A stretch of DNA of 64,000 nt from Gammaproteobacteria bacterium UBA2679 (GTDB lineage Bacteria; Pseudomonadota; Gammaproteobacteria; Pseudomonadales; Oleiphilaceae): positions 89,373 to 153,372 of the forward strand of contig DEMD01000014.1 of NCBI GenBank assembly GCA_002354735.1. The letters run 5' to 3'. The position numbers were made by a program, and so were the translations under genes. The notes under the pieces are model-generated. The model was not told where the DNA came from. It made no database searches and saw only the letters and a list, made by a program, of their open reading frames with translations. Shown here piece after piece: positions 1,727 through 56,782 of the stretch; the stretch's first letter is position 1, and each line of letters starts with the position of its first letter.

Positions 1727-4700
1727 GCAAACATCCTTACAATCTGTTCTGCCCATTGATGGCGCTGCTCTGGATCAACCAAAGGTACGTTGTCGCGCAG
1801 TTTCTGGCTACCCTCTAGCCGGTAGCGCTTCGGTTTAGTCTGTACCAGTTCGATCAGCTTCATCGGCTGCACGCGGGTTTTCGCTGCGAACTCAACCACG
1901 CCGCCTTTCTCACCGGCATCGATCCGTACGATACCCAGTTGATCGGCTTCCATGCGAATGGCGGCCTGGCGGAACAGGTTCTTTGCTGCATCAGGCAGCA
2001 AGCCGAAACGATCGATCAGCTCGACCTGGAGATCCTTCAGCGCCTCGGGCGATTTCGCCGCAGCAATGCGCTGATATAGCACGAGCCGCGATTGCACATC
2101 GTGGATATAGCTGTCCGGCAGCAATGCAGGTGCCCTCAGGTTTACCTCGCAAACCTTCTCTTCCGGATCATCCAGCGACAGTTCCTTACCTTCGCGCATA
2201 GCCCTCACCGCACTGTCCAGCAGCTGCATGTACAGCGAGAAGCCGATGGCATTGATGTGACCACTCTGTTCTGCGCCCAGAAGCTCACCCGCACCTCTGA
2301 TCTCAAGGTCGTGGGTCGCCAGGGTAAAGCCGGCGCCGAGGTCCTGCGCCGCGCTGATGGCCTCCAGCCGCTTCCTCGCGTCTGCTGTCAGCGATCGAGG
2401 TGAGACTGTCAGCAGATAGGCGTAGGCCTGGTGATGCGAGCGGCCAACCCGGCCCCTGAGCTGGTGCAGCTGGGCAAGCCCAAGCTTGTCGGCCCTGTCG
2501 ATGATAATGGTATTGGCGCTGGGGATATCGATGCCGGTTTCGATAATGGTAGTACACACAAGCACGTTGTATTTCTTGTGATAGAACTCCGACATGACCT
2601 TTTCAAGCTGGCGCTCAGGCATCTGACCGTGCGCCACACAGATTCGCGCGCCGGGCACCAGTTCTGCCAGTGCGTCCGCCGTCTTCTGTATCGTCTTCAC
2701 TTCATTGTGCAGGTAAAAGACCTGGCCGCCGCGGAGCAGTTCCCGCATCACAGCCTCCTTCACGATGCCGTCTTCATGCTCATGCACGAAAGTCTTCACT
2801 GCCAGGCGTCGTTCGGGTGGGGTGGCGATAATGGACAGATCTCGCACGCCCTGCAATGACAGGTTCAGTGTTCGTGGAATTGGCGTCGCAGTGAGCGTCA
2901 GGATGTCGACTTCGGCGCGCAGGGCCTTCAGGCGCTCCTTTTGTTGCACGCCAAAGCGGTGTTCCTCATCGATGATCAGAAGACCGAGATCCTTGAACTC
3001 GACATCCTTTTGAATCAGCTTATGGGTGCCGATCACGATATCGACCTGCCCAGCTTTCATCGCTTCCATCGAGGTCTTGATTTCCTGCGTCGAACGGAAG
3101 CGGCTGAGCAGCTCGATACGCATGGCGGTGCCAGCAAATCGATCGCGGAAGCTGTTGAAATGCTGTTGTGCCAGCAATGTGGTTGGCACGAGCACGACGA
3201 CCTGGCGCCCCGCGTTGGCCACCAGGAAGGCTGCTCGCATCGCCACCTCGGTCTTGCCGAAGCCGACATCGCCACAAATGAGCCGGTCCATGGGCTGCTG
3301 CCGCTTGAGATCGGACGCTACGGCGCCGATGGCGCTGGCCTGATCGGGCGTTTCTTCAAAAGGGAAGTCATCAGCAAAGCGGCTGTATTCGATTTCTTCG
3401 ACCTTGTACGAATGCCCCTTTCGGGCCTCGCGCCGCGCGTAGATTTTCAGCAGTTCGCTCGCCACATCTCGAATCTTCTCGCGGGCTGCCCGTTTCGCCT
3501 TCTGCCATTTGTCGTTGCCGAGCTTGTGCAGTGGCGCGAATTCCTCATTGAGCCCGGCATAGCGTGAGAGCACCTGCAGCTGCGCTACGGGTACATACAG
3601 TTTCGCATCATCGCCATATACCAGCAGGATGAACTCCTGTTCCTGGTCACCCACGTTCAGACTGACCAGCCCATGAAAGCGCCCGACACCGTGTTCGATA
3701 TGCACGACCGGCATACCTTCCTTCAATTCGGCGAGGCTCTGGATAAGGGCATCGGTATCCGTGGCTGACTGCTTTCGGCGGCGGCGCTGCGGCACCTTGA
3801 GTTCGAACAGATCGGACTCGCTGATGAGCAGGGCAGGCGGGTCAAGCAAGCGGAAGCCACGGTCGATATCCGCTGTCAGTACCTGCCAGCTACCAGGGCG
3901 GCTGAGTGCTTCCTGCCAGCTATGTGCGCTCAAGAGCGCCTGATCATGCGCTGCAAAGAGGTCCTTCAGAGCTTCCGCACGACCGGCAGACTCTGCCGCC
4001 AGCACAACGGTGTCCTTGCCCGCCGCATCGATGAGCTTCTGCAGCGGCTGGTTCTGCTGCGTCTCAACGCCCACGGCCGGCAGCTCGGCGACCACCGCCT
4101 TTTCACCATCAGCTTTCGGGGTAACTTCTATTCGAGGTTGACGCGCCAGCGCGGCGAATAGCTCATCCGGTCGCAGATACAGCTTGTGCGGTGGTAAAAG
4201 CGGGCGGTGACGATCATGGCCCAGACTGTCGAAACGAGACTGCACATCAGCCCAGAACTCCTCTGCGCGCGCATGCAGGTTCGGCATCAGATACAGCTGA
4301 CTGTCGGGCGGCAGATAGTCGAAGAGGGTGGACGTGTCAGCGTCGAACAGCGGCATGTAGTATTCGATGCCCGGCGTGACGATGCCTTCTACGACGTCTC
4401 TCAGTACGGGCGTCTGACGTGGCGACTCCGGAAAGGCTTCGTAGAAGTTCTGCCTGAAGCGACTTCGGGCCGCCTCGTCGAAGGGGAACTCGAAGGCCGG
4501 CAGCAATTCGATTTCATCGATCTGATCGCCTGAACGCTGGGTTTCCGGGTCGAAATAACGCAGGCTGTCGACTTCATCATCGAACAGCTCGATTCGAAAC
4601 GGCTGGTCATGACCCATGGGGAACAGATCGATGATGGCACCACGAACCGCAAACTCGCCATGTTCGAAAACAGTGTTCACATTGCGGTAGCCGACCTGTT

Positions 4701-47305: not shown

Positions 47306-48004
47306 ATGTTCACTTCAGTAGTAAAAGGTTTTTCCCTGACTGCAATCGCTCTTGCAGTTTCTCTGCCAGCATCAGCCGCCATCATCCAGGGCTTCGACGT
47401 GTCTAACGCTGCAAACGTTTCTTGCAACGGTGGCGCTCAGTACGGCCTGTGGACTAACAGCCTGACCCCTAGCAAGTGCTCCAAGTACTTCTCTATCCAG
47501 ACTGGTACTACGTTCCTGCGTTCAGACGATGGCACTGCAACCTTCACTGGTTCAGCGCTGAACCCACTCGGTACAACTGCGATCTTCGACCTTACCTTCA
47601 CTGGTTTCCAGGATGATTACTCAGTTGTTAAGACTGGCGGCACTGCCAAGCAGGCTGACTGGAATTTCTACACTGGTCTGACTTCAGACAGCAAGATCAC
47701 TGTTGGCGGCGTAGACTACTTCGCGCAGCTGGTTGGTGCACCGACTAACGTTGGTTCAATGCCAGTATTCCAGTACGGCACTGGTGCAAACGACAAGAAC
47801 GCAGCCTTCGGCGGTTCTGTCTGGATGGACATGTATGCTGCTGACGGCACTGCGCTGTTCACTGGTGGCAAGCACTGGGACATCAACTTCAACCTGACTG
47901 AGAACCCAGACCTGGTTCCTGACGTTGACGTTCCTGCGCCTGCTACCCTCGGCCTGCTGGCACTTGGTGTTGCTGCTCTGCGTCTTTCACGTCGCAGCAA
48001 GTAA
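47306..48004 (+). CDS. PEP-CTERM sorting-signal protein, paralogue 1
   Basis: A 232-residue exported protein. The signal peptide (FTSVVKGFSLTAIALAVSLP, cleavage after ASA) precedes a beta-rich domain of about 170 residues with one Cys pair (SCNGG and SKCSKY). The C-terminal sorting signal is VPAPATLGLLALGVAALRLS then RR. The motif is Pro-Ala-Pro rather than Pro-Glu-Pro, but motif-helix-Arg cluster is the exosortase substrate architecture. The gene has a strong AGGAG, a sigma-54 promoter and its own terminator. Its repetitive GGC/ACT/GCA-rich codons suggest high expression. It is likely an EPS-matrix or floc protein; function unknown. Confidence 0.9.
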   Translation: MFTSVVKGFSLTAIALAVSLPASAAIIQGFDVSNAANVSCNGGAQYGLWTNSLTPSKCSKYFSIQTGTTFLRSDDGTATFTGSALNPLGTTAIFDLTFTGFQDDYSVVKTGGTAKQADWNFYTGLTSDSKITVGGVDYFAQLVGAPTNVGSMPVFQYGTGANDKNAAFGGSVWMDMYAADGTALFTGGKHWDINFNLTENPDLVPDVDVPAPATLGLLALGVAALRLSRRSK

Positions 48005-48061
48005 GTATTCACTGACATTTGATCGGGAGGTCTTTGATCTTCCGGCAAGGTTAGCGAAAGA

Positions 48062-48088
48062 AAAACCCTTCCTCGGAAGGGTTTTTTT
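48062..48088 (+). terminator. Intrinsic terminator after PEP-CTERM gene 1
   Basis: AAAACCCTTCC and GGAAGGGTTTT form an 11-bp stem with a 2-nt TC gap (effectively a TCCTCGGA-type loop), followed by more T. A strong rho-independent terminator 58 nt past the stop. Confidence 0.92.
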
Positions 48089-48272
48089 ATGAGCTTTTTT
48101 ATTTCTCTGCTCGTACCCAGCCAGCTCTGTACCAAACGGAATAATCCCTTTGGATAGCCATTGTAACTTTGACGGCGAGCAGTGTAGTGAATTGTAAAAA
48201 CTACCCCCTGAAATGCTGCGTATAATTACGTAGACAGCGTTAAAACCCTATGTAGAACAGGCATCTACAAAG
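48089..48272. other. Gene-free leader region between PEP-CTERM genes 1 and 2
   Basis: 184 bp upstream of the second -24/-12 element. It is AT-rich, with a TACGTA palindrome near 48226-48231. It shares TGTAGAA with the corresponding region of gene 1, at a different distance from the promoter. No reading frame was recognised. Confidence 0.4.
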
Positions 48273-48290
48273 TTGGCACATTTCCTGTAT
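48273..48290 (+). promoter_or_regulatory. Sigma-54-like promoter of PEP-CTERM gene 2
   Basis: TTGGCACATTTCCTGTAT has a perfect -24 element TTGGCAC. At the correct 12-bp distance it has GT (48287-48288) instead of GC. The preceding ACAAAG is identical to that of gene 1. Expected start is near 48300, with a leader of about 90 nt. Confidence 0.65.
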
Positions 48291-48390
48291 GTTAACTTAC
48301 TGCAATACACGGAATGTTTTTGTGAAACGTTGTACCTGTAGACATCAGGATGACAACTCACGACCAACTACAACCTTACAGGGGTTTCTC

Positions 48391-49098
48391 ATGTTTAACT
48401 CAAAATTGGCGCAATCACTCTCTCTTTCGGCTCTGGCTCTTGCAGTCGCACTGCCAGCTTCAGCAGCTGTAATCGAAGGCTTTGACGTTAGCGATGCTGC
48501 CGTCAGTGCGGATGGCAACAGCTTTGGTCTGTGGACCAACACCCTGAACACTGGTGGTGATGTTCATTACTCAATCCAGACAGGCACAACCTTCATCCGT
48601 TCAGATGATGGCACTGCAACCTTCACTGGCACTGCTACCAACCCAAGCGGCGTTGGCGCAATCTTCGACCTGACCTTCACTGGCTTCACTGAAGATTACT
48701 CAGTAGTCAAGACTGGTGGCATGGAAGAGCAGGATGACTGGAAGTTCTACACTGGTCTGACAGCAGACAGCAAAATCACTGTTGATGGCGTAGATTACTT
48801 CGCCCAGTTGGTCGGCGCTCCAGACAACGTTGGCACTATGCCTGTATTCCAGTACGGCACTGGCGCGAACGACAAGACTGCCGACTTTGGTGGTTCTGTA
48901 TGGCTCGATATGTACAATGCTGAAGGCGAAGCCCTTTTCGGTGACAACCACTGGGACATCAACTTCGACCTGACAAACAACCCAGACCTCGTTCCTGACA
49001 ACCCAGGTTCAGGCGTAGACGTACCAGCACCTGCAACACTGGGTCTGCTGGCTCTTGGTGTAGCTGCTCTGAGACTGTCACGTCGCAAGCAAGCATAA
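48391..49098 (+). CDS. PEP-CTERM sorting-signal protein, paralogue 2
   Basis: A 235-residue paralogue of the preceding gene, very similar from DDGTATFTGTATNPSG to the C-terminus. The frame is open from 48289, but ATG 48391 (MFNSKLAQSLSLSALALAVA) has AGGGG at 6 nt and starts the signal peptide. Unlike paralogues 1 and 3, it lacks both cysteines of the N-terminal pair. A GSG-containing insert precedes the sorting motif VPAPATLGLLALGVAALRLS then RRKQA. Codon use is strongly biased, as in paralogue 1. Confidence 0.9.
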   Translation: MFNSKLAQSLSLSALALAVALPASAAVIEGFDVSDAAVSADGNSFGLWTNTLNTGGDVHYSIQTGTTFIRSDDGTATFTGTATNPSGVGAIFDLTFTGFTEDYSVVKTGGMEEQDDWKFYTGLTADSKITVDGVDYFAQLVGAPDNVGTMPVFQYGTGANDKTADFGGSVWLDMYNAEGEALFGDNHWDINFDLTNNPDLVPDNPGSGVDVPAPATLGLLALGVAALRLSRRKQA

Positions 49099-49116
49099 GA
49101 TTTCAAAGATTTGCAG

Positions 49117-49139
49117 AAGCCTCCTTCGGGAGGCTTTTT
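49117..49139 (+). terminator. Intrinsic terminator after PEP-CTERM gene 2
   Basis: An 8-bp stem AAGCCTCC/GGAGGCTT with a stable TTCG tetraloop and trailing T, 19 nt past the stop. Confidence 0.93.
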
Positions 49140-49270
49140 GTTAAGCGTCGATTATCCGCATCTAGTCACTTCCCCAATTGTCCAGAAAGCATACAGATCG
49201 TCTGGCAATGTCTCCGTTCCTACCCTTGTCTATCTTCTAAAGCTGTCGTGAAATCAGTGGGCTATTATTT

Positions 49271-49287
49271 CTGGCCTGGAAAATGCT
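49271..49287 (+). promoter_or_regulatory. Sigma-54-like promoter of PEP-CTERM gene 3
   Basis: CTGGCCTGGAAAATGCT has GG (49273-49274) and GC (49285-49286) 12 bp apart and keeps TGGC, the G before the spacer, and TGC of the consensus. Expected start is near 49298, giving a leader of about 72 nt like the other two genes. Confidence 0.65.
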
Positions 49288-49369
49288 TATGACGGTCAGC
49301 GACGGTCCTTCTCATACCCAACGTCCCCACGTACTCATTCAACACTTGGCTTACACAGGCTGTAAATAA

Positions 49370-50086
49370 ATGAAGGCTGTAATCTCAAAACGTTTTGCAC
49401 TGTCGGCTCTGGCGATGACTTTGTCCATGTCCGTATCGGCTACTGTGATCAGTGGCTACGATGTCACCGATACCGCCAGTAAGGATTGTGGTGGCGCCAG
49501 TCATGGCCTGTATACCAACTCCCTCAAACTGGGTTCCAAGAAGTGCGCAGCGAGATCATATAGCATCGGCAGTGGGTCAACATTTCTGCAGTCAGACGAC
49601 GGTACAGCACGCCTGACGGGAACCGCTTTGAATCCTTATGGAATCAACGCTGCCTTCGATCTCTTGTTCACCGGCTTTACCGAAAGCTATTCAGTCGTCA
49701 AGAAGGGTGGCTCTTCGAATACCGCTGACTGGAATTTCTATACCGGCATGTCGAGCGATAGCCGTATTACTGTGGATGGCATCGACTACTATGCGCAACT
49801 GGTTGCTGCCCCAGGCAAGTCTGGCAAAGCGCCCGTCTTTCAGTTTGGTACGGGTGCCAACGACAAGACCAATGCCTTTGGTGGCTCTGTATGGATGGAT
49901 ATCTATGCCGCCAATGGTAAGCCGCTGTATACCGGTAGCAAGCACTGGGACCTGAACTTCGATTTGAACTACAACGAAGACCTGGTGCCGGATATCAACG
50001 TTCCGACGCCAGCGACGCTCGGTCTGCTGGTGCTTGGCATAGCAGTGACCTGTCTTTCACGCAGGAAGAACAGCCAAGCTTCTTGA
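49370..50086 (+). CDS. PEP-CTERM sorting-signal protein, paralogue 3
   Basis: A 238-residue paralogue, more diverged than the first two. The signal peptide AVISKRFALSALAMTLSMSV is followed by the same beta domain, with the Cys pair (DCGGAS, KKCAAR) retained. The sorting signal is VPTPATLGLLVLGIAVTCLS then RRK. Pro-Thr-Pro replaces Pro-Ala-Pro, and a Cys lies in the hydrophobic helix. Codon bias is less extreme than in paralogues 1 and 2. The ribosome-binding site is weak. Confidence 0.88.
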   Translation: MKAVISKRFALSALAMTLSMSVSATVISGYDVTDTASKDCGGASHGLYTNSLKLGSKKCAARSYSIGSGSTFLQSDDGTARLTGTALNPYGINAAFDLLFTGFTESYSVVKKGGSSNTADWNFYTGMSSDSRITVDGIDYYAQLVAAPGKSGKAPVFQFGTGANDKTNAFGGSVWMDIYAANGKPLYTGSKHWDLNFDLNYNEDLVPDINVPTPATLGLLVLGIAVTCLSRRKNSQAS

Positions 50087-50142: not shown

Positions 50143-50174
50143 AAAAAGGCCCTTCCGCAAGGAAGGGCCTTTTT
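50143..50174. terminator. Bidirectional terminator between PEP-CTERM gene 3 and the metalloprotease gene
   Basis: AAAAAGGCCCTTCC, a GCAA loop and GGAAGGGCCTTTTT form a 14-bp perfect stem whose A- and T-tracts serve both strands. It lies 56 nt past gene 3 and 23 nt past the protease stop. Confidence 0.93.
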
Positions 50175-50197: not shown

Positions 50198-51445
50198 TTA
50201 GACGCCTTCCAGACCGAAGCGCTGATTGTCGCCACCGTTAGCGCTGTACTGCTGAACCGCTGCGCGGTTGTCATCAGACTGGCCGCGAATGTCCAGGTTC
50301 TTGTAGCTGGCCTTGTTCGATACGCGGAAGTGGCTGCCATCGGCAGTGAGCTTCCACTGCTGGCTAGAGCTGCCGTTGCAGTTTTCCTGGATCGCACGAG
50401 CACGATCACCGTTGCCATCGATAGACAGACACTTGCCTGAGTGACGTGCCTTCAGTGTGAAGTAGCCACCAGAAGTCGCTGAGGCTGTGAAGGCCTGGTT
50501 CGAACCACCGTGGCATGACCACTGGGCGATAGTGGCACCTGAGTAGCTCGCGTTACCGCTTACGTCGATACACTTGCCGCTGTTCTTAGCACGAAGACGG
50601 TAGGTCTTGCCGTCGGTGATTGACGAAGTCGAGCCAGAGCTGGTGTTGTTAGTTGGTGTCGAAGGCGATGTGGTGGTTGTTGAGCCACTCTTGCTCGCGC
50701 GGTAGTTCGAAAGCTCGTTTCGAACGTTCTGAAGTGCTCGAGCTGCGTCAGCTTCATTCGACTTGCCGGCAGGCACGCCACATGGCTTGCCGTTGCATGA
50801 CACGTTAGGGTTGGAGAACTTGCCAATACGGCTTGTGCCGTAGAGGTGAGCATAGGACATGATAGTGGCGAAGGAGTACTCGACACCGTAGCCCAGCGCG
50901 TAGGAGTAGCGCGAGCCGCTAGTCTTGCCCTGCTTGCGCGAGTGGTCAAGACCCATGTTGTGGCCGAGTTCGTGTGCCATGGTCATCGGGCCGCACTTCG
51001 GGCCGACAACACTGTAAGCATATTGGCTGGACATGGTGACATAACCAATGCCGCAATTGGCCTTGTCGCTCATCATGACGACGAAATCGGCGCCCAGGCT
51101 GTCACGCTTGCTGCGAACAGACGAATCTTTCTGCAGGTTGGTGATGAGGTCAGTCACGCTGCTGCCAGACTCACTGTGATATGAAGTGCCAACCAGGTTG
51201 AGCTTGATATCGACTTTCGAGTTGGCGTAATAGCTGTTGATCTGATTGACCCAGCTGCGTGCAACTGTTGAAGGCTCGCCACCAAGCTGTGATTTTGCGC
51301 CGCTATCGTATACCACGAGCACATCCATTGTTGCTGCCTGTGCTGCAGCTGCTGACGCGAGCATACCAGTGCCGAGAATTGCTGTGAGAAGAGGGTTCGC
51401 TGACCGTCGGTGACTCTTTTGGCTCGTGATGTTCGGGTTGTTCAA
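50198..51445 (-). CDS. Secreted metzincin metalloprotease with ricin-type lectin domain
   Basis: A 415-residue exported zinc protease. After a signal peptide (cleavage near AQAA, about residue 38) the catalytic domain starts at once with MDVLVVYDSGA. The zinc site is MAHELGHNMGLDHSR (HExxHxxGxxH), with a Met-turn in FATIMSYAHLYG. The domain resembles M72/M12-type peptidyl-Asp metalloproteases. A Ser/Thr linker joins a ricin B-type beta-trefoil (about 285-415) with three repeats ending NQAF, SQQW and NQRF. No propeptide is encoded; the gene just upstream may supply it. The start is TTG with AGGAGA. Confidence 0.9.
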   Translation of the reverse strand: MNNPNITSQKSHRRSANPLLTAILGTGMLASAAAAQAATMDVLVVYDSGAKSQLGGEPSTVARSWVNQINSYYANSKVDIKLNLVGTSYHSESGSSVTDLITNLQKDSSVRSKRDSLGADFVVMMSDKANCGIGYVTMSSQYAYSVVGPKCGPMTMAHELGHNMGLDHSRKQGKTSGSRYSYALGYGVEYSFATIMSYAHLYGTSRIGKFSNPNVSCNGKPCGVPAGKSNEADAARALQNVRNELSNYRASKSGSTTTTSPSTPTNNTSSGSTSSITDGKTYRLRAKNSGKCIDVSGNASYSGATIAQWSCHGGSNQAFTASATSGGYFTLKARHSGKCLSIDGNGDRARAIQENCNGSSSQQWKLTADGSHFRVSNKASYKNLDIRGQSDDNRAAVQQYSANGGDNQRFGLEGV

Positions 51446-51534
51446 GGTAATTCTCCTATCATCCGTAGTGTTTAGAGGCTGCCCCTCGGGACAGCAGCAA
51501 AGTTCTTGAAATGTTTCGTTCCTGACGCCTGTAA

Positions 51535-52464
51535 TCAGGAATTCTTTTGTTCTGGTGGGTAGACGCGGTCGTCCTCGTCTCCCGGATTGAACAGTGTGCC
51601 GGTCGGAACGATCCAGCCTGCAGCTGCCCGGGACTCGATCATGTATTCGCCGTTTGGCGTGGTGATGCCACCGATGGTGACTGTCTCACCCTGCGTGATC
51701 GATACCTGATTTTCTTGTTCGTAATCCTTTATGCGGCCGAACCAGGTCACTTCACCGGTTTCGCTCACTTCCACGTTGTCCACGACCATTTCCATGCTGC
51801 CACTTTCAAAGGACACAGGCAGTTCCAGCGTGTCGCCAGGGACCAGTGTCTCAATCTTCATCTGATCGACCTTGACGAACTCACGACCGTCGAAACGCTG
51901 TTCCGGGGTCAGGTCGAGCTGGTCACTAGCCTCGGCACTTTCCTGCCATGGGTGCTCTTGGGCCAGGGCTTTCAGAACGGATTCAGGGTCGAAGACCTTG
52001 CCGCCGCGACGAGCCTGCATTTCGAGCATTCTGGTTTCGAGGCTGGGGTAATCAGAGTTGGTATTGAGGGACTGGTACTGGGATTCTTGTGCGGGGGTAA
52101 CAGTGAAGCCGTAATTGCCTGATTCGTCTGCCAGATGCTCCGACTCAAAATCTGTCGGTGCATCGTTCGTCGTCTGGGCCACTGTCCCCTCGAGGCGCTG
52201 TGGGGCCGGCTGGACTGGCGCCTTCATTTGCAACGTATCCGGCTCAGCTACCGGTGCCACCATTGTGGTGACCGCTTCAGCGGAATCGACAACGGGGAGG
52301 GCGACGGTATGGTCGCCAGTAGGGACAGCATCCACAAGTATTGTAAGGGCTACAACAAAAGCGCCTATTGAACCGGTGGTCGAGACCCAGAACAGTGGTC
52401 TGCTGAGAATTCTCTCAGAAGCGTGATCCCGAGCTGTGCTCAGTTTTCTATTCTGCTGCTTCAT
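51535..52464 (-). CDS. Membrane-anchored protein with metalloprotease-propeptide-like domain
   Basis: A 309-residue protein with a cytoplasmic N-terminus, one transmembrane helix (about 25-46) and a periplasmic region. I do not recognise a named family. Residues about 195-295 (VDQMKIETLVPGDTLELP, EVTWFGRIKDYEQENQVSI, IGGITTPNGEYMIES) resemble the N-terminal propeptide found in many secreted metzincins. It lies 89 nt upstream of the propeptide-less protease in the same direction, with GGGAGG before its ATG. A trans-acting inhibitor or folding chaperone for the protease is the working idea. Confidence 0.7.
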   Translation of the reverse strand: MKQQNRKLSTARDHASERILSRPLFWVSTTGSIGAFVVALTILVDAVPTGDHTVALPVVDSAEAVTTMVAPVAEPDTLQMKAPVQPAPQRLEGTVAQTTNDAPTDFESEHLADESGNYGFTVTPAQESQYQSLNTNSDYPSLETRMLEMQARRGGKVFDPESVLKALAQEHPWQESAEASDQLDLTPEQRFDGREFVKVDQMKIETLVPGDTLELPVSFESGSMEMVVDNVEVSETGEVTWFGRIKDYEQENQVSITQGETVTIGGITTPNGEYMIESRAAAGWIVPTGTLFNPGDEDDRVYPPEQKNS

Positions 52465-53861: not shown

Positions 53862-55304
53862 ATGCGCCAGAATACGACAGCAAACAGATTTAAATCGAAA
53901 GTCGCGGTCGCTCAGGGCGACGATGAGCAAGGTAGTGTCGAGTCACTGGCGAACCTGAGCCCGAAGACGATCTGGCAGTCGGTGCGACGTGAGCATCTGG
54001 CGTTCTGGGCGATTTGTGGGTGGTTGTTTTTTGAGTATATCAAGCCGCAGGCGATCTATCCGTGGATGGATATCCTGCCTTGGTCGCAGACTTGTATTAT
54101 CGGAGCGTTTCTTCTGTCGCTGGCAAAAGGCGATAAGATAGCTGCATCAAAAGGGCTTTTCGGTCTGCATGCTTCAATTCTAGCATTTTTGGTACTTATA
54201 TTAGCCTCCAGTGCGTTTGCCTATAACAGTGCTTTCGCCTTCAGCAAACTGAGTATCATGGGACAGTGGTTCATAATTTATTATCTCGTTCTGAAAATTA
54301 TCAACACTGAAAAACGCTTTCTCATTTTCTTCCTGCTTTACCTGCTCTGCAATTTCAAAATGTCTCAGCATGGTTTCGTGTCCTGGGTCTCTAGAGGTTT
54401 TGCATTCGCGGACTTTGGAGTCACGGGTTCGCCCGGCTGGTTCCAAAACTCCGGTGAGTTTGCCATGCAGATGGCTATCTTTTTGCCAGTGTCTATAGCC
54501 TTCATTAACTCCTTTAAGCACCGATGGTCTAAGCTGCTTTACTATTTTATGCTCTTGTTTCCCATAAGCGCGTTCAGTTGTGTTCTTGCAAGTAGTTCCC
54601 GAGGTGGCGTGTTAGGACTAGTAGCGATGGGTCTTCTCATTCTTTTTCAGAAGAAGAAGATGTTCAAACGGCTGATGGCGGTGCTTTTGATCGTGGGCGT
54701 CGGTTACCTCATGCTGCCAGATAAGTTTAAGGAACGTTTCGAAACGGCCGGCGACGACGGAACGTCAAATCTTCGACTGTTCTACTGGGGCCTTGCAGGA
54801 GATATAGCTGCGGACAATCCATTTCTCGGCATTGGTTATATGAACTGGATACCTTACTATAAGGCATATTATTTCGATCCCTCCATCAAATACAAAGCTG
54901 AGGAAGTGCACAGCACCTACTTTCAAGCGATGTCGGAACTTGGATACACCGGTCTGATCATACTCATTTCGTTCGCGGGAGTTACCTGGCGGCTGAACAG
55001 ATCCACCAGCAAAGCTATGCTGCAGCATGAGGGCGAGGAAATGGCGGACTTCTACCGAAACGTGGCAAAAGGCTTGAATTACGGCTCGTTTAGTTTGTTC
55101 GTAACCTGCGCATTTATCTCGGCGCTATATTACCCATTTTTTTGGATGCAAGGCATATTGTCTGCAACCCTCTACGGAGTCGCACGGTTGCGCTATTCGC
55201 CTGTGAAAAATGCAGCTCGAATAGTAAAACCTTCCGCGCAACAGAAATCCACTAAGCTGCCAGCGTTTCCAGCTAAGCCGTCCAGACTCACGAGCGGTAA
55301 GTAA
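53862..55304 (+). CDS. O-antigen ligase/Wzy-like membrane protein
   Basis: A 480-residue polytopic protein with about ten or more helices and the Wzy_C-type periplasmic loop, with SSSRGGVLGLVAMGLLILFQ (the RG motif) and NPFLGIGYMNWIP followed by HSTYFQAMSELGYTG (conserved His). It is either a polymerase or a ligase for the local glycan. It starts an overlapping gene series (TAATG with the next gene) that is more AT-rich than the core genes. Confidence 0.85.
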   Translation: MRQNTTANRFKSKVAVAQGDDEQGSVESLANLSPKTIWQSVRREHLAFWAICGWLFFEYIKPQAIYPWMDILPWSQTCIIGAFLLSLAKGDKIAASKGLFGLHASILAFLVLILASSAFAYNSAFAFSKLSIMGQWFIIYYLVLKIINTEKRFLIFFLLYLLCNFKMSQHGFVSWVSRGFAFADFGVTGSPGWFQNSGEFAMQMAIFLPVSIAFINSFKHRWSKLLYYFMLLFPISAFSCVLASSSRGGVLGLVAMGLLILFQKKKMFKRLMAVLLIVGVGYLMLPDKFKERFETAGDDGTSNLRLFYWGLAGDIAADNPFLGIGYMNWIPYYKAYYFDPSIKYKAEEVHSTYFQAMSELGYTGLIILISFAGVTWRLNRSTSKAMLQHEGEEMADFYRNVAKGLNYGSFSLFVTCAFISALYYPFFWMQGILSATLYGVARLRYSPVKNAARIVKPSAQQKSTKLPAFPAKPSRLTSGK

Positions 55305-56782
55305 TGAGTCGAGCTTGTGCAGTCTTGCGAGTCGATGAGCTCGAAGACGGTATGTCTGCTGTACCGAAAGTGGAATATCTGCTTCGGGCGGGATTTCGAT
55401 TTATTTCGGTCGCCGAGTTTTTTAATGCGAAAGATACAGATTGCTTTCCGCACGATCAGTCTGCGTTTCTGGTAGTTCATTCTTTTGATCTTCAGTTTGC
55501 GGCATTGCTCTCGCAACGGCTTTCCGCGCTCGCTGTACCTTTTCTCCTAGTCTGTAATAGTAATACTCTGACGAGTCCGAATGCTAACTGGCCTAGCAGA
55601 GTTGAGAGGATCCTATCTGGTTCGGAATCAGGCATGCCAAGCCTGAAGTTAGGAGCTGGCGTCGTTAAATACGAAGTAAGTGAAACCTCTGTCTCTCAGG
55701 TAGTGACCGATGTTGTACGTAGGATGGCCGTTATGGGTCGTGGTGATCGAGACAGGGCGATCAGGGACCTTGAGCAAGAGCTAAAACAGAGCAGCTCAAT
55801 ACCTTCCCGGCCAGAGGAGAGGTCGTTTATTGGTATATTCGGCAATTTCGAGTCCAATCTTGTTAGTTTTGCTCCAATGCCCGAAAACTGCAGTAGTCGC
55901 TTATTGAACCACGCTGGATTCGACACGTCTGTCAGGGAGACAGTTCGGAAGCTCGAGGCGCTTGGGCTACGCCCGCTTCGAGACGTTTACAGCATGCCGT
56001 TCAGGCACGACTATTGGGAAAAGTTTACTCGCGCAGGTTCAGCAGAGGCTGTGATGTTCGCCTACAGTTTTTCCGGCCATCTTTGCACGCCGGCCGCAAT
56101 CGCCGCTGGATTGGTTCCGCAGCTGGCGTGCCCGTCAACGTTGGAGGAAGCGTTGCAACTTGGACGGAGATGCGTGCATGCGCAGCTTCAAGAACCGATG
56201 GGACGACTCTCGCAAGCTCATTACCACGGAGGAAAGCGAGCTCTTCTGAAGTCGCTTCGCTCGCATATTTGCAGTATTTTCGGCCGCTACCGAAGTCTCG
56301 CACGAATCGAGTTCGATCGCGTCCAGCGGGTAGTTTTCTTCTGCAAAGGAAATATTAATAGAAGTGCTTACGCAGCATGCTTATTGAAGTCGTTGGCAGC
56401 GGTAGAGACTTCCTCTTTCGGTTTGAGCGCCAATGATTCTGATGCTGCAAGCGTCCAGGCGCTTGAGCGAGCCTGCAGAGATGGACTTGACCTGACAAAC
56501 CACATAACCACGTCCTTCTCCTCATTCAAAGTTCGTGACGGTGATCTAATTGTTGGTTTTGAGCCGGGGCACGTTGCATTGCTCAGTCGACTCGTGCACG
56601 CCGAGAACAAGTCGCTTCAGTTTACTCTGGCTGGTTTGTGGTCTCAGCCGAAATCGCCCTATGTGCAAGATCCAATCGTAAGGTCAGAGCAGTATTACGA
56701 ACGATGCTTTGATCTCATTGCGTCCAGCGTCAATGAGATCAGCAGGCTGCTAGCCAAGCCTGTCCACGCAGGGGCAGTGTAG
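55304..56782 (+). CDS. Deacetylase-like domain fused to LMW-phosphatase-like domain
   Basis: A 492-residue protein of no standard family that I recognise. Residues about 1-90 follow the outline of a NodB deacetylase N-terminus (YLLRAGFRFISVAEFF then FLVVHSFDLQFAALLSQRLS), but the catalytic DD is missing. The middle (about 165-340) is unassigned. Residues about 342-485 are LMW-PTP-like: FFCKGNINRSAYAACLLKSL has the CX5R loop (C347), and VQDPIVRSEQYYERC the Asp loop. Asn replaces the usual Cys after Ile in the loop. Gene borders overlap both neighbours by one base, so it belongs to the glycan operon. Confidence 0.7.
   Translation: MSRACAVLRVDELEDGMSAVPKVEYLLRAGFRFISVAEFFNAKDTDCFPHDQSAFLVVHSFDLQFAALLSQRLSALAVPFLLVCNSNTLTSPNANWPSRVERILSGSESGMPSLKLGAGVVKYEVSETSVSQVVTDVVRRMAVMGRGDRDRAIRDLEQELKQSSSIPSRPEERSFIGIFGNFESNLVSFAPMPENCSSRLLNHAGFDTSVRETVRKLEALGLRPLRDVYSMPFRHDYWEKFTRAGSAEAVMFAYSFSGHLCTPAAIAAGLVPQLACPSTLEEALQLGRRCVHAQLQEPMGRLSQAHYHGGKRALLKSLRSHICSIFGRYRSLARIEFDRVQRVVFFCKGNINRSAYAACLLKSLAAVETSSFGLSANDSDAASVQALERACRDGLDLTNHITTSFSSFKVRDGDLIVGFEPGHVALLSRLVHAENKSLQFTLAGLWSQPKSPYVQDPIVRSEQYYERCFDLIASSVNEISRLLAKPVHAGAV

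Follow-up and report, generated by a model that had tools for sequence, protein, structure and literature searches.

A secreted metzincin without its own propeptide and a membrane-anchored, propeptide-like partner: a probable split zymogen in an Oleiphilaceae bacterium

Where is the propeptide of a secreted metzincin whose catalytic domain starts directly behind the signal peptide? The question is raised by a gene pair from the marine Gammaproteobacteria bacterium UBA2679 (Oleiphilaceae; GenBank assembly GCA_002354735.1), located on a stretch of 64,000 nucleotides (contig DEMD01000014.1, positions 89,373 to 153,372) which we call the window and which provides the coordinates used below. On the minus strand, the gene for a membrane-anchored, CpaB/BamI-like chaperone of 309 aa (51535..52464; here called the partner) lies upstream of the gene for the 415-aa protease (50198..51445), with a gap of 89 bp between them (51446..51534). 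A preliminary description of the locus had taken the partner for a propeptide-like protein acting in trans; both open reading frames (ORFs), their common direction and their order were confirmed. We consider it likely that the pair is a split zymogen, in which the metzincin is exported without a propeptide and the propeptide is the C-terminal domain of a separate, membrane-held protein.

The protease consists of a signal peptide, a metzincin catalytic domain, a short linker and a ricin-B lectin domain (approximately residues 281-410). The signal peptide (51335..51445, minus strand, residues 1-37) was delimited by eye, with predicted cleavage between AQA and A. The main Pfam matches to the catalytic domain (50696..51334, minus strand) begin at residues 38-39 (Reprolysin_5, and Reprolysin_4 from residue 39, E = 2e-16), at most two residues from this site; the catalytic domain follows the signal peptide directly, as the preliminary description had stated, and leaves no room for a propeptide. 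The zinc site (50942..50974, minus strand, residues 158-168) reads HELGHNMGLDH and follows the pattern HExxHxxGxxH; it is conserved in an alignment of 21 rows, in which the downstream Met196 is invariant, as expected for M12B/M72-like metzincins. The C-terminal ricin-type beta-trefoil lectin domain (50210..50608, minus strand) matches RicinB_lectin_2 with E = 1e-35. Among NCBIfam families, Mep72 is nearest (E = 1.9e-59), followed by CpaA (E = 4.6e-23); the score of 201.8 bits against the Mep72 equivalog NF052434 lies below the curated cut-off of 645. Of 532 protease homologues, the 120 listed were used to determine N-terminal lengths, and 119 of them have at most 49 residues ahead of the catalytic domain. 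The missing propeptide therefore typifies the whole branch and not a single gene. The remaining homologue has an N-terminal extension of 123 residues with a match to PF02839, which we take to be carbohydrate-binding, so that the extension probably has this function.

The partner combines one transmembrane helix with a C-terminal domain, again as described. The single N-terminal helix (52327..52395, minus strand, approximately residues 24-46) corresponds to the peak of the Kyte-Doolittle (KD) hydrophobicity profile (1.81, for intervals starting at residues 26-29; next best, 1.35) and to a low-confidence helix predicted by AlphaFold2 (AF2) at residues 24-45. The prodomain-like beta domain (51562..51996, minus strand, residues 157-301) contains the motifs EVTWFGRI and IGGITTPNGEYMIES, and overlaps a C-terminal D-x-x-x-P motif (51556..51570, minus strand, residues 299-303), a candidate active-site-blocking tail which is shared with the fused forms described below. 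AF2 modelling of the full partner from 9 alignment rows gave a predicted local distance difference test (pLDDT) value of 39.5; an alignment of 76 rows gave a usable model. By fold, the C-terminal domain resembles metzincin propeptides and agrees with CpaB, and the structural similarity to propeptides on which the preliminary description depended is thus present. Against the NCBIfam equivalogs, the partner scores 47.2 bits for CpaB (NF033512, E = 2.4e-12) and 18.4 bits for BamI (NF052435, E = 0.0015), below the respective curated cut-offs of 90 and 180 bits. Nothing meaningful was matched in a Pfam search of the partner, and a PDB sequence search with the partner as single query gave no match up to E = 10. 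A precomputed match to PF27177 (PF27177.1), taken here together with the CpaB fold as the mark of a CpaB/BamI-like domain family, is found on all 9 listed relatives, namely P0001, which is 100% identical to the partner, and 8 others. A single N-terminal transmembrane helix and a gene adjoining that of a secreted client are traits which the partner shares with membrane chaperones of the type II secretion system (T2SS).

Is this domain homologous to N-terminal extensions of related metzincins? A profile built from separate partners only was run on a set of 30 N-terminal stretches together with 2,901 other ORFs. It matches 10 of the 30 stretches at E < 1e-4 (best, 3e-22); 55 other ORFs are matched at E < 1e-3, all of them its own seed partner genes, and beyond the seed genes none of the 2,901 falls below E = 5. 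Reciprocally, a profile from the 10 fused domains finds 55 separate proteins out of 56 (E < 1e-3), including the partner from the window (3.3e-20), and misses only a fragment at locus L005; its two best non-seed matches (7e-4 and 8e-4) are Nitrospira ORFs of loci L056 and L069. A further test set was drawn from the relatives of a single fused form, of which 120 out of 134 were listed. These are mutually related, and 98 are matched by the separate-only profile at E < 1e-3. The controls were clean, with no match among 120 reversed N-termini (best E = 6.6), 120 catalytic parts (best E = 1.5) and 120 metzincins without an N-terminal extension (best E = 0.56). PF27177, an independent Pfam model, is precomputed on 13 of the 120 relatives listed for the fused form, and the homology of the separate and the fused domain may already be known to Pfam's curators; NCBIfam and local Pfam left the N-terminal domain unnamed in all 10 fused forms tested. 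The partner domain thus shows the homology to N-terminal extensions that marks a metzincin propeptide, and the propeptide likeness claimed earlier holds by fold as well as by descent. In our view, CpaB/BamI-type chaperones and the propeptides at the N-terminus of related metzincins are one homologous domain.

The fused and the separate form replace each other across related loci. A scan of species genomes covered 412 protease relatives, and among the matches listed 80 loci (L numbers) were kept. At 54 of these, the domain is encoded in an ORF beside the protease on the same strand (55 partner ORFs; by scripted placement 38 upstream, 14 downstream and 3 unplaced, these being one fragment and two overlapping frames). 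An N-terminal hydrophobic segment with KD of at least 1.6 is present in 42 of the 55. Ten separate-gene partners chosen from the 55 at other loci all match CpaB and/or BamI (E at most 0.0011), and well outside this genus the domain is still conserved and accompanied by metzincins. At 18 loci the protease frame itself carries the domain at its N-terminal end (E < 1e-3 with a combined profile, which itself contained 10 of the 18), and L079 was added by eye (profile E = 2.1). Three loci have neither form (L016, L057, L063) and four are cut by contig ends (L020, L064, L074, L075). Strong matches in both forms at one locus occur at none of the 80; the two Nitrospira loci combine a weak fused match with a weak separate match downstream. 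Counted from the first ATG, the median number of residues ahead of the catalytic domain is 26 in 56 proteases with a separate partner and 181 in 19 fused forms, outliers being probably due to start-codon guesses and truncated ends.

Two of these cases deserve separate mention. Directly downstream of the Nitrospira metzincins, a gene on the plus strand (L069:4884-5384 and L056:4900-5427) encodes a small protein that looks secreted and contains a weak CpaB-like domain. At L005, a 95-aa ORF (3673-3957, plus strand) with the C-terminal part of the domain lies upstream of a metzincin that has a full partner downstream, and looks like the remnant of a moved or duplicated gene.

The position of the gene break can be compared with the fused chains through the conserved tail proline. 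Among the rows having that Pro, an Asp is found 3 to 5 residues ahead of it in 41 of 55 for the separate and in 12 of 14 for the fused form. Separate proteins end 0-25 residues past the Pro (median 8, 61 rows); in fused chains, the catalytic domain follows 16-62 residues past it in 11 of 15 cases, and a longer insert brings the distance to 187-200 residues in the other four. The gene break is therefore located near the site at which a prosegment would be removed, the presumed pro/mature junction. Seven acidobacterial-type fused forms (L061, L068, L059, L037, L043, L080, L042) share the tail [FL]-P-[EP]-C-[GA]-G, with a cysteine two residues past the conserved Pro resembling a cysteine switch; the tail from the window is acidic there.

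Co-occurrence of domain and protease, a check suggested in the preliminary description, was surveyed across 145 genomes from the order to which Hahella belongs; the domain is present in 26 and the protease in 26. Of 55 domain matches, 47 have a detected metzincin no more than 3 kb away, in 46 cases on the same strand; 7 of the 47 are in the protease's own open frame (equal frame length) and 40 are separate neighbours, so that the domain is not routinely found without the protease. Among the other eight, the match at L082 adjoins a metzincin missed by the query, and those at L081 (cut by a contig end), L083 and L085 lie beside other genes. Three more are copies of a CpaB-like domain in one 434-aa ORF (L084:2592-3893, minus strand), with no metzincin seen in the 7 kb surveyed; this is perhaps a free-standing multi-domain inhibitor. 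The match at L086, judged by eye, looks like a chance match in an HlyD-like protein. Conversely, 22 of 70 protease matches, some of them weak and distant, have no domain match within 3 kb. In the phylum of an acidobacterial fused form, 9 of 149 genomes have the domain, 11 of 12 matches being in frames of at least 485 aa (judged by length alone); in the class of the planctomycete from locus L055, it is found in 11 of 151 genomes.

By parsimony, at least three changes between the fused and the separate form are required on a tree of the catalytic domain (83 rows; 82 in the careful tree, from which the long branch L058 was left out). A single clade of all 19 fused rows is mildly rejected by the approximately unbiased (AU) test (p = 0.019) and is not rejected when L023 is omitted (p = 0.098). 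More than one change is therefore likely and three are not proven; the tree gives no direction, be it splitting or fusion. The domain has thus probably changed between a fused and a separate gene more than once. T2SS presence does not tell the two forms apart: GspD scored over the cut-off in 12 of 15 relatives' genomes, with 9 of 11 for split and 3 of 4 for fused forms (controls, 2 of 14).

In outline the idea of a split pair is not new, since CpaB and BamI have been published as trans partners and the kind of system is thus already known from a few bacteria (PMC4713064, PMC4334185 and PMC7542363). In Acinetobacter, CpaA depends for its type II secretion on CpaB, a membrane-anchored chaperone (PMC4713064), and the partner from the window is 22% identical to CpaB over the aligned fold (PDB 6o38). 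CpaA has its catalytic domain at the C-terminus (profile match 375-575 of 575) beside Ig-like repeats, whereas the window protease has a ricin lectin after the catalytic domain; cpaB follows cpaA (PMC4713064), whereas the partner gene is upstream. Mep72, a biofilm metzincin of Pseudomonas aeruginosa, is the best family match of the protease and likewise has its catalytic domain first and sugar-binding domains after it, though these are two carbohydrate-binding modules instead of a ricin lectin. The gene for its inhibitor BamI adjoins and is co-transcribed with that for Mep72 (PMC4334185), and the partner gene is similarly adjacent. In profragilysin and ADAM17 the propeptide is in cis, as the N-terminal part of the protease chain, and not separate as in the window; neither prodomain was found by sequence when the family profile was searched against PDB chains up to E = 10. 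Lipase-specific foldases (Lif/LipB) are also membrane-anchored steric chaperones encoded beside a type II substrate (PMC4713064), but their client is a lipase. The tail of CpaB, which lies within the active site of CpaA, has been likened to zymogens, and CpaB has been described as a novel protease-chaperone arrangement (PMC7542363); by BLASTp, only two weak CpaB orthologs were reported outside Acinetobacter (PMC4713064). Our literature search, outside of which the main CpaB papers fell, found no statement linking CpaB, CpaA or Mep72 to propeptides.

On the gene pairing, the fold, the homology to fused propeptides and the split point obtained here, the following course can be proposed. The 415-aa metzincin would be exported without a propeptide of its own, and the N-terminal helix would hold the 309-aa partner in the inner membrane with its domain facing the periplasm. 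Acting in trans, this domain would help the protease to fold and would cover the catalytic cleft, the short D-x-x-x-P tail running through the active site; once the protease departs through the type II system, the partner would stay behind. The precedents of CpaB/CpaA and BamI/Mep72 suggest that the two proteins bind, that the partner inhibits the protease or assists its folding, and that secretion sets the protease free; the active-site cover and latency are suggested by the structure 6o38, as described in PMC7542363.

The partner might alternatively be a secretion chaperone or foldase only, which aids folding and access to the type II machine and imposes no latency, so that the propeptide resemblance would reflect folding help. 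Propeptides often provide both folding help and inhibition, which counts against this explanation, and we consider it rather unlikely. It would agree with the designation of CpaB as a chaperone, with the loss of CpaA secretion upon CpaB deletion (PMC4713064) and with the minimal activity of Mep72 on generic substrates (PMC4334185), but BamI binds Mep72 and rescues Escherichia coli from its toxicity (PMC4334185).

That neutralisation of toxicity could also suggest a dedicated immunity or inhibitor protein unrelated to maturation. The same domain is, however, an N-terminal extension in fused forms, and CpaB is needed for secretion (PMC4713064), so that we give this explanation hardly any credence. 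As a further alternative, the domain could be a general lipocalin/SRPBCC-like beta fold which different proteases recruited independently, its likeness to propeptides being convergent; this is very improbable and already disfavoured. The profile searches succeeded in both directions with non-overlapping sets while their controls stayed clean, one Pfam model (PF27177) spans both forms, the tail motif is common to them, and separate and fused forms are complementary across loci, all of which argues against convergence. We thus retain the split zymogen as the preferred interpretation.

The pair is surrounded by an exosortase/polysaccharide region, which includes genes for PEP-CTERM proteins and one resembling an O-glycosylation ligase gene. 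The preliminary description had tied it to abundant exosortase substrates, which could not be upheld: by a pattern search that catches all three tandem PEP-CTERM genes of the window, PEP-CTERM-like ORFs are near only 1 of 80 related metzincin loci, and the exosortase link is therefore local and not a property of the system. The three tandem genes (47306-50086, plus strand) encode similar proteins, with weak NCBIfam matches mostly limited to the sorting tail, and are convergent with the pair. Between the convergent PEP-CTERM gene and the protease gene, a perfect GC-rich hairpin with A and T runs on its flanks (50143-50174, by eye) is fit to end both; it is absent from the list of the terminator scan, which also reported no minus-strand terminator-like site in the 89-bp gap. 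The protease ORF starts with TTG, 7 nt after AGGAG (by eye). Further along, a 492-aa protein (55304-56782, plus strand) matches low-molecular-weight tyrosine phosphatases in its C-terminal part (E = 4.6e-11) and has a long N-terminal part without NCBIfam match.

We think it likely that the membrane-tethered type II chaperones to which CpaB and BamI belong are propeptides of metzincins in detached form. The domain is present in cis in some lineages (Acidobacteria, some Gammaproteobacteria and, with weaker matches, Nitrospira and others) and in trans in the rest, and parsimony on the catalytic-domain tree gives three changes between the two. Uniting CpaB, BamI, the partners of about 50 loci and the cis propeptides in a single family would explain the origin of these chaperones, the presence of the CpaB tail in the active site, and the many secreted metzincins without a prosegment. 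One protease is thereby available in naturally fused and naturally split versions for a direct laboratory comparison. If the interpretation is true, a protease zymogen can split into two genes, with the prosegment becoming a membrane-retained secretion factor.
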